From contig CANQCI010000005.1 in assembly GCA_947589675.1 (NCBI GenBank), forward strand, positions 1 to 53,569: 53,569 nucleotides of DNA. The letters run 5' to 3'. A program made the position numbers and the translations under genes. The stretch is from an uncultured Bacilli bacterium (GTDB lineage: Bacteria; Bacillota_I; Bacilli_A; RF39; UBA660). The notes beneath the pieces were generated by a model that saw only the letters and a program-made list of their open reading frames with translations, was not told the DNA's origin and did no database searches. Shown here in pieces: positions 13,986 to 15,633 of the stretch. Within the stretch, counting starts at the first letter, position 1, and each line of letters opens with the position of its first letter.

Positions 13986-14112
13986 ATATAACCTGAAACA
14001 GGTTATATTATGGAGAAAATAATTATTTATTTCAAAAAATACAAATTTTTTAAAAAAATTGCCAAAAAAAGAAGTAAAATGACACTTTAGTGGACTATAT
14101 ATAAGTGAGGGG
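13986..14112 (+). repeat. Upstream direct-repeat copy 1, with inverted repeat and promoter
   Basis: Starts with a perfect 10-bp inverted repeat (ATATAACCTG at 13986-13995, CAGGTTATAT at 13999-14008, AAA between). It continues with an A/T-rich stretch containing AAATACAAATTTTT, and ends with TTAGTGGACTATATATAAGTG. The same order recurs at 15496-15618 in front of comEA. The two copies flank the Rpn genes and probably carry a promoter whose -10 is the TATATATAAG block. The rest of the 13944-14224 gap holds a small AGCTAG/CTAGCT inverted repeat near 13955-13975 and the AGGAGAGG ribosome site. Confidence 0.65.
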
Positions 14113-14224
14113 GTAATTGCACCATGAAGTAAAATTAATAAATAATCCAGTTTAAGATTTAAAAGAAAACCCAGAATAATTAGTCAGCACTGGTAAAAAT
14201 AGACTAAAAGGAGAGGAGAAAACA

Positions 14225-15082
14225 ATGGCAAACAAAAAGTTTCAAAAAACTCTTATGTATGATGAGCGTTTTAAATATTTTATTAAAGACCCAAAGTATA
14301 GATGGTACACCATTCTTCTTTTAGCGGGTATTTTAAAATTGGATAAGAATTATGTTGAAAAAAATTTATATTTTTTAGATACAGAACTTACAGGTAATCC
14401 TAATCAAACCGGAAAACGTAGTGATACTGTTTTTGAAGTCGGAAACTACATTATTAATGTAGAGATGAATCAAAATAAGAATTATGACTTTCTGGAAGAT
14501 AAGATTAGATATGTTAATTATCTTTATAACAAATATTTTGATGGTAAACATAAAAGAATGGATTATACTATAATTCAGGTTCATATAAATAATTTTGATT
14601 GTTGTGAAAAAGAAGTAGAATATGTTTATCTAAAAAATCAAAAAGGGATTGTAACCCCGAAGATAAAAATTATTATCTATAATCTTGTCAAACTGAAAAG
14701 AAAATATTATAATAATTTTACATTAAGTAAATTAGAGAAATTATTATTAGTATTAAAATTAAGTGCTAATATGGAAAAATTAAAGAAATTTTTGGAGGAT
14801 GATGAATATATGCGAGAATTAGAAAAAGAAAAAAAGTTCTTTCAAGATGTCATGGAGGGTTTTGCTAAGGAATTTGATTATGATGAGGAATTAGAGGGGA
14901 AGCGAATGGCTGAGATTAGAACAGCTCGGATGGATGGCATAGAAGAGGGCATTAGCCAAGGACAATATGAAGAAAAAAGAAATGTGGTTCATAATATGAT
15001 AAAAATGGCATACCCTAAAGAAGCTATATTAGAAGTAGCAGGAATAAATGCCGAAGAATATGATAAATTAATTACTACATAA
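14225..15082 (+). CDS. Rpn-family PD-(D/E)XK nuclease (recombination-promoting nuclease/transposase-like)
   Basis: A 285-residue protein of the Rpn (YhgA-like, PDDEXK transposase-like) family; relatives are DNA endonucleases and some act in phage defence. The core opens with YDERFKYFIKDPK. A likely active site lies in the RSDTVFEVGNYIINVEMNQ region (about residues 75-93), with Asp and Glu placed as in PD-(D/E)XK enzymes, though the last position reads N where K or Q is usual. The C-terminal third is charged and helical and ends in the family's AGINAEEYDKL type. Inside the gene, GGAGG at 14794-14798 precedes an in-frame ATG at 14810 (Met196), enough to make a 90-residue C-terminal product. AGGAGAGGAG lies before the main ATG. 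Confidence 0.82.
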   Translation: MANKKFQKTLMYDERFKYFIKDPKYRWYTILLLAGILKLDKNYVEKNLYFLDTELTGNPNQTGKRSDTVFEVGNYIINVEMNQNKNYDFLEDKIRYVNYLYNKYFDGKHKRMDYTIIQVHINNFDCCEKEVEYVYLKNQKGIVTPKIKIIIYNLVKLKRKYYNNFTLSKLEKLLLVLKLSANMEKLKKFLEDDEYMRELEKEKKFFQDVMEGFAKEFDYDEELEGKRMAEIRTARMDGIEEGISQGQYEEKRNVVHNMIKMAYPKEAILEVAGINAEEYDKLITT

Positions 15083-15132
15083 TTTAATATTTATATTAAC
15101 TTTAAAGAGTTATCTTATTCGTAAGATGATTC
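14787..15132 (+). repeat. Tandem duplication, copy 1 (3' part of the Rpn gene plus terminator)
   Basis: A 346-base segment from just before the internal ribosome site to within the terminator is repeated at 15145-15478. Identity is near-complete. The copies differ by a 12-base (four-codon) deletion in copy 2, near the DGIEEGISQG codons, and by a few point changes. Confidence 0.9.
14794..15082 (+). CDS. Candidate intragenic small protein RpnS-like, 90 aa
   Basis: An in-frame internal reading unit of the Rpn gene. GGAGG at 14794-14798 is followed, 11 bases on, by the ATG at 14810; the coding part is 14810-15082. The spacing is a little long but the ribosome site is strong for this window. Small proteins made from inside rpn genes have been reported in other bacteria to restrain the full-length nuclease. 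That this one is made and does so is inference. The stand-alone duplicate downstream begins with the same ribosome site and start. Confidence 0.55.
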
Positions 15133-15138
15133 CTTTTT
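15104..15138 (+). terminator. Rho-independent terminator, copy 1
   Basis: GAGTTATCTTA and TAAGATGATTC pair around a TTCG loop, followed by CTTTTTA. It lies directly behind the full-length Rpn gene. Confidence 0.75.
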
Positions 15139-15144
15139 ATAAGT

Positions 15145-15478
15145 AATTTTTGGAGGATGATGAATATATGCGAGAATTAGAAAAAGAAAAAAAGTTCTTT
15201 CAAGATGTTATGGAGGGTTTTGCTAAGGAATTTGATTATGATGAAGAATTAGAGGGGAAGCGAATGGCTGAGATTAGAACAGCTCGGATTGATGGCATTA
15301 GCCAAGGACAATATGAAGAAAAAAGAAATGTGGTTCATAATATGATAAAAATGGCATACCCTAAAGAAGCTATATTAGAAGTAGCAGGAATAAATGCCGA
15401 AGAATATGATAAATTAATTACTACATAATTTAATATTTATATTAACTTTAAAGAGTTATCTTATTCGTAAGATGATTC
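15145..15478 (+). repeat. Tandem duplication, copy 2
   Basis: The second copy of the 14787-15132 segment, starting 12 bases after copy 1 ends. It carries the ribosome site, the C-terminal coding part and the terminator as one unit. The duplication therefore created a complete small gene. Confidence 0.9.
15168..15428 (+). CDS. Stand-alone C-terminal Rpn fragment, 86 aa
   Basis: Encodes only the charged helical C-terminal part of the Rpn protein, without the nuclease core. GGAGG at 15152-15156 precedes the ATG at 15168; an in-frame TTG at 15150 would overlap the ribosome site and is less likely. Relative to the parent it lacks four codons but keeps the frame and the same C-terminus, so it is under some constraint or very young. 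It may be a separate source of an antitoxin-like small protein, or simply a by-product of the duplication. No promoter of its own is visible; it would need readthrough of the first terminator. Confidence 0.6.
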   Translation: MRELEKEKKFFQDVMEGFAKEFDYDEELEGKRMAEIRTARIDGISQGQYEEKRNVVHNMIKMAYPKEAILEVAGINAEEYDKLITT

Positions 15479-15486
15479 TTTTTTTA
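15450..15486 (+). terminator. Rho-independent terminator, copy 2
   Basis: A 14-bp stem AAAGAGTTATCTTA with TAAGATGATTCTTT around TTCG, followed by a T-run. It is a better version of copy 1. Confidence 0.8.
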
Positions 15487-15495
15487 CGTTTATTA

Positions 15496-15618
15496 ATATA
15501 ACCCAAAATGGGTTATATTATACATAAATTAACTCTTTTTTACAAAAAAATACAAATTTTTAAAAAAAATTGTCGAAAAAAAAAGTAAAATGACAAATTA
15601 GTGGACTATATATAAGTG
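15496..15618 (+). repeat. Upstream direct-repeat copy 2, comEA promoter region
   Basis: The inverted repeat ATATAACCCA/TGGGTTATAT (15496-15505, 15509-15518, AAA loop) is followed by the same A/T-rich segment as copy 1, including AAATACAAATTTTTAA and GTGGACTATATATAAGTG. The TATATATAAG block at 15609-15616 is the likely -10 of comEA. A TGACAA block lies 14-17 bases before it. Confidence 0.6.
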
Positions 15619-15633
15619 AAAGGAGGTATTTCT

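Follow-up and report, generated by a model that had tools for sequence, protein, structure and literature searches.

The question raised by this locus is whether a nuclease gene of the Rpn family also contains, inside its own reading frame, the start of a second and smaller protein which restrains the nuclease. The gene belongs to the window, a stretch of 53,569 nucleotides which forms contig 5 in an assembly of 1.46 Mb. Four features of the gene are necessary to follow the argument:

14225-15082, plus strand: rpnL, a 285-residue Rpn-family PD-(D/E)XK nuclease and putative toxin (TIGR01784 at E 2.9e-7, below the cut-off; homologues; conserved D67, E80 and N82)
14794-14798, plus strand: internal Shine-Dalgarno sequence GGAGG, conserved beyond the demand of the protein
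14810-15082, plus strand: rpnS, an intragenic 90-residue C-terminal protein from Met196 and putative antitoxin (conservation of start and Shine-Dalgarno sequence; C-terminal profile against E. coli RpnA-S 7TH0)
14926-14958, plus strand: region of 4-residue repeats (MDG-IEEG-ISQG), the family lengths of which vary by multiples of 4 residues only

The sequence-only reading had placed a GGAGG at 14794-14798 and an in-frame ATG at 14810 (codon 196), opening a 90-residue C-terminal product, and these positions are exactly right. The spacing of 11 nt between the GGAGG and the ATG is longer than optimal, though still usable; the paralogues located on contigs C36, C4 and C6 of the same genome have 8 nt. 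Among the 201 internal ATGs of the 34 open reading frames of at least 200 residues in the window, a Shine-Dalgarno match of at least 5 nt precedes a single one, namely that at 14810, and a match of at least 4 nt precedes 11.

With 30.6 bits against a cut-off of 52.1, the window protein itself scores modestly with the Rpn profile TIGR01784; a Pfam search with it gave no match, PADLOC made no call for it, and a search of genome and viral contigs with it found no relatives. Its aligned homologues match TIGR01784 at E ≤ 0.001 in 82 of 83 cases (best value 1.4e-25) and PF12784 (PDDEXK_2) in 56 of 83 and, judged by these profiles, the family clearly belongs to Rpn. The active-site residues of RpnA are D11, D63, E82 and Q84 (Kingston et al. 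2017, PMC5350276). Their putative counterparts, matched by motif and not by direct alignment to RpnA, are D13, D67, E80 and N82, conserved in 73, 83, 82 and 82 of the 83 homologues, respectively; on this matching, the N82 that occupies the position of Q84 would be a conservative change. The AlphaFold2 model of the window protein has a mean pLDDT of 88.9. Structural matches to its N-terminal domain, led by McrC and Nt.BspD6I, consist mostly of PD-(D/E)XK nucleases with modest Z values of at most 5.7, and Foldseek with the full model returned no match at E ≤ 0.001.

For the analysis of the internal start, 128 full-length homologues were collected, 87 of which were retained at less than 80% identity. 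A start codon occurs at the Met196 position in 85 of these 87 homologues, and a Shine-Dalgarno sequence of at least 4 nt in 71. Two null models were used, a first one in which the protein was fixed and the codons were shuffled within each gene, and a second, context-aware synonymous one in which the neighbouring bases were also kept. Under the first, a Shine-Dalgarno sequence of at least 4 nt together with the ATG was found at the site in 65 of 80 cases (40.9±3.8 expected), one of at least 5 nt in 46 (21.7±3.3) and one of 6 nt in 13 (3.0±1.3). Under the second, the corresponding counts were 62 (38.1±3.6), 46 (24.0±3.4) and 13 (2.8±1.2), the excess at the site amounting to about 6 standard deviations over both synonymous nulls. 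Glutamate codons at -5/-4 before a G are GAG in 16 of 18 cases, against 115 of 810 (14%) elsewhere (p = 8e-12), and Shine-Dalgarno sequences before the other internal ATGs are depleted, with 28 observed for 47 expected. The GGA codon of the conserved Gly-Asp pair was also considered as Shine-Dalgarno evidence and discarded, GGA having a similar frequency in GD dipeptides at other places (29 of 39, against 37 of 46 at the site). The synonymous test supports internal initiation at the Met196 site by revealing selection on the site, rather than translation itself, and the sequence evidence for the internal start is strong. In this respect, the homologues keep both the ribosome site and the methionine beyond what the amino acids demand, which is the opposite of the outcome, residues kept and ribosome site or Met codon lost, that the sequence-only reading had named as speaking against its proposal.

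Upstream of the internal start, the gene contains a candidate promoter:

14685-14713, plus strand: internal sigma-70-like promoter TTGTCA-N17-TATAAT, with 11 of 12 consensus matches

The motif ends 96 nt upstream of the start at 14810, a distance which is also that of the best sites of the C36 and C6 paralogues and of one genus relative. Family-wide, the promoter score reaches 10.41 against 10.05 for the synonymous null, a weak excess (p = 3.5e-5), the control region being non-significant. Zhong et al. 2023 (PMC10327210) mark an internal promoter in rpn genes of E. coli.

Downstream of rpnL, the internal unit occurs a second time:

15104-15137, plus strand: terminator-like hairpin and T-run 3' of rpn (MFE -11.2 kcal/mol, z -2.9)
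15141-15484, plus strand: tandem copy of 14783-15138, comprising Shine-Dalgarno sequence, rpnS and hairpin, identified by sequence comparison
15168-15428, plus strand: rpnS', a free-standing 86-residue copy with its own GGAGG at 15152-15156, one 4-residue repeat shorter; comparable copies occur elsewhere
15450-15483, plus strand: second terminator-like hairpin (MFE -13.1 kcal/mol, z -3.5)

The duplicated unit extends from just 5' of the Shine-Dalgarno sequence to the 3' hairpin, and over about 344 bp the two copies, 14783-15138 and 15141-15484, are separated by 5 substitutions and a single deletion of 12 bp. The deletion corresponds to the loss of exactly one 4-residue repeat (GIEE) from rpnS', the reading frame of which is intact; judged by its sequence, rpnS' is a recent duplicate, and it is most likely translated. 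This tandem duplication, absent from the sequence-only reading, is the best local evidence. Two more of the close paralogues in this genome, those on C36 and C6, also have a downstream rpnS, with a homologous Met start and Shine-Dalgarno sequences of their own; in the C36 copy the Shine-Dalgarno sequence is a new one, ACGAGGGAGTGATAGTCGTATG, and the upstream protein sequence is absent. About eight further free-standing copies were found in related species, about ten rpn genes overall being accompanied by one. Most of these copies have their 5' end no more than about ten codons ahead of the internal start and include the Shine-Dalgarno sequence and the ATG, a clustering of breakpoints which carries some ascertainment bias because the list is limited to frames of 40-220 residues aligning with the C-terminal part. 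The copy L123 reaches upstream beyond the promoter motif, and the copy L026 has kept this motif and lost the stretch between promoter and start. The reading frames are intact throughout, and dN/dS is 0.11-0.37 in 7 of 9 comparisons of free-standing copies, 0.69 on C6 and 1.08 on C36.

The region upstream of rpnL is repeated as well:

14030-14170, plus strand: rpn leader with promoter-like TGGACTATATATAAGTGA (14091-14108), found in each of the genome's five close paralogues
15545-15631, plus strand: additional rpn leader immediately 5' of a comEA-like gene, 89% identical over 87 nt

Another extra leader (C6:21052-21130) is located directly 5' of a C39-peptidase ABC transporter gene, and both extra copies sit after free-standing rpnS units. 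From their sequence and position, the extra leaders look like the remains of a collapsed tandem array, and they may now drive the comEA-like and the C39-peptidase ABC transporter genes. A reading of the shared leader as the mark of a comEA competence regulon is unsupported, because genus relatives have a comparable leader in front of an rpn gene and of an rpn fragment. The end of the leader harbours a two-codon reading frame, ATG-AAG-TAA (14124-14132), which is retained in the paralogues, with a strong Shine-Dalgarno sequence in front of it, as ATG-AAT-TAA or ATG-AAG-TAA. Four more distant rpn genes of the genome, L009-L012 on C38, C52 and C54 (two of them on C54), each have a gene behind them that codes for a signal-peptide-like protein of repeated type.

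Genes-within-genes of the RpnL/RpnS type are already known, with intragenic RpnS, internal promoters, downstream copies and an example from C. difficile (Zhong et al. 2023, PMC10327210). Like RpnL/RpnS of E. coli, the present system associates a PD-(D/E)XK reading frame with a candidate internal promoter, an internal Shine-Dalgarno sequence and ATG, and a small C-terminal protein with hypervariable 4-residue repeats and a three-helix fold, and it shares with it the downstream free-standing copies and the C-terminal exchange. The C-terminal profile matches RpnA-S 7TH0 in hmmsearch (E 1.3e-5), and the modelled RpnS' superposes on 7TH0 in Foldseek at 2.2 Å over 44 residues (TMt 0.73), with a non-significant E of 0.9. 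RpnS here comprises 74-128 residues (median 91), and its repeats lie 36-59 residues after the start (median 44) instead of the 8-20 of published RpnS (PMC10327210), for which reason the window system is filed as a long-armed variant. The third catalytic residue is N in 82 of 83 homologues, whereas it is Q in E. coli RpnA. On these sequence features, the window system is a long-armed member of RpnL/RpnS; the longer arm, the N in place of the catalytic Q, and the usually different repeat number of the free-standing copies are new here. In E. coli, rpnE and ypaA (free-standing RpnES) likewise form such a pair, in which the downstream copy is cut precisely where the internal start lies and has AAGGAG as Shine-Dalgarno sequence; these copies are older, with a dS of 0.46 against 0.04 for the rpnS/rpnS' pair of the window, and the rpnE nuclease is annotated as inactive in K-12. 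The proposal of an intragenic toxin-antitoxin arrangement in a distant Firmicute is largely supported by the selection on Shine-Dalgarno sequence and start, the candidate promoter and the free-standing copies; a Firmicute case is no novelty as such, since a C. difficile rpn gene expressed in E. coli has been found to make the internal RpnS (PMC10327210). The Rpn lineage of C. difficile differs from the present family, which comes from MAGs of uncultured gut Bacilli/Tenericutes (AlaRS neighbours at ~80% identity).

Hypervariable 4-residue repeats are a published hallmark of RpnS (PMC10327210) and, in a set of 74 similar homologue pairs, every one of the 63 with gaps has a C-terminal length difference that is a multiple of 4 residues. 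Free-standing copies differ from their neighbours in 8 of 10 cases, through a clear 4- or 8-residue indel or through lengths that are less regular; only L093 has the length of its neighbour. The repeats of E. coli rpnE and ypaA are never equal in 11 sampled genomes representing 7 combinations, a mismatch on which the main text of the cited Rpn papers makes no comment. Selection for difference is unsupported by either comparison, since 63 of the 74 similar homologue pairs differ too, and random pairing would rarely produce a match among the 7 mismatched E. coli combinations. As 85% of the homologue pairs differ anyway, what the comparison shows is that the free-standing copies are not bound to the repeat number of their neighbour, rather than that a difference is selected. 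E. coli RpnC is neutralised only by matched repeats (PMC10327210), and the product of rpnS', being one repeat short, would probably neutralise the neighbouring RpnL poorly if the RpnC rule holds here. In the paralogue L002 (C41:6683-7519, minus strand), the first 246 residues are nearly identical and the last 40 are unrelated, which in sequence terms amounts to a swap of C-terminal domains within the repeat region. It is a tentative and rather unlikely reading that the free-standing copies provide immunity against incoming or paralogous RpnL, or a stock of specificities recombining into rpn genes, and are not the spare antitoxin of their neighbour. Action on other Rpn variants is suggested because most copies differ in repeat number and neutralisation by RpnC needs matched repeats, and recombination back into rpn because the C41 paralogue has a swapped tail.

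Taken as a whole, the locus is quite probably an RpnL/RpnS toxin-antitoxin gene-within-a-gene, in which the nuclease is restrained by its separately made C-terminal 90 residues. The full reading frame, in which the catalytic residues can be read directly, would yield the PD-(D/E)XK DNA nuclease RpnL as putative toxin. Depending on the putative promoter near 14700 and on the Shine-Dalgarno sequence and ATG at 14794/14810, for which both selection and re-use of the unit in free-standing copies are apparent, the C-terminal 90 residues would be translated separately as RpnS, with an antitoxin role predicted by homology to the E. coli system. By analogy, RpnS would use its repeat-bearing helix to dimerise with the corresponding part of RpnL and neutralise it, holding the nuclease inactive until a trigger, probably phage infection, frees the toxic RpnL; the same analogy suggests an antiphage role.

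A different view would regard the Shine-Dalgarno sequence and the methionine as by-products of a G/E-D-x-x-M motif needed at a helix boundary, with no internal protein. Conservation does extend to the acidic-Met motif itself, and the needs of the protein together with codon usage would alone produce about 24 of the 46 sites with at least 5 nt, but the excess over the two synonymous nulls and the GAG preference described above, together with free-standing reading frames that begin at the homologous Met behind new Shine-Dalgarno sequences in places that lack the upstream protein sequence, as on C36, make this view highly unlikely. Internal translation might also be real and the small protein a structural subunit or activator, like Cas11 from cas10d or cas8, rather than an inhibitor. 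Such a role is improbable, given that the E. coli homologues act as inhibitors in vivo as well as in vitro (PMC10327210) and that the small protein here shares their repeat helix and fold, even if sequence cannot tell an inhibitor from a partner and the N-terminal arm is longer than in E. coli RpnS. The functional start could finally be Met228, which is in frame, is preceded by GAGG at 8-nt spacing and would give a 58-residue product with its repeats ~10 residues after the start, within the published range of 8-20. This codon, however, is ATA in the C36 and C4 paralogues and GCT in that of C6, its column contains ATG in only 1 of 87 family members, and the free-standing copies start at the equivalent of Met196, not of Met228, all of which renders Met228 very improbable as the functional start.

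On the preferred RpnL/RpnS reading, the evidence of selection would carry the case for an antitoxin inside the nuclease gene beyond the handful of genes tested so far, to an entire family from uncultured gut Bacilli, the conservation of the Shine-Dalgarno sequence against synonymous codon change serving as an experiment-free test of an internal start. RpnS can apparently possess a longer N-terminal arm than previously described. In addition, a nearly fresh duplication of rpnS which already differs by one repeat represents a natural test of repeat-matching specificity, and the rpnS/rpnS' pair also bears on the origin of new toxin-antitoxin specificities.
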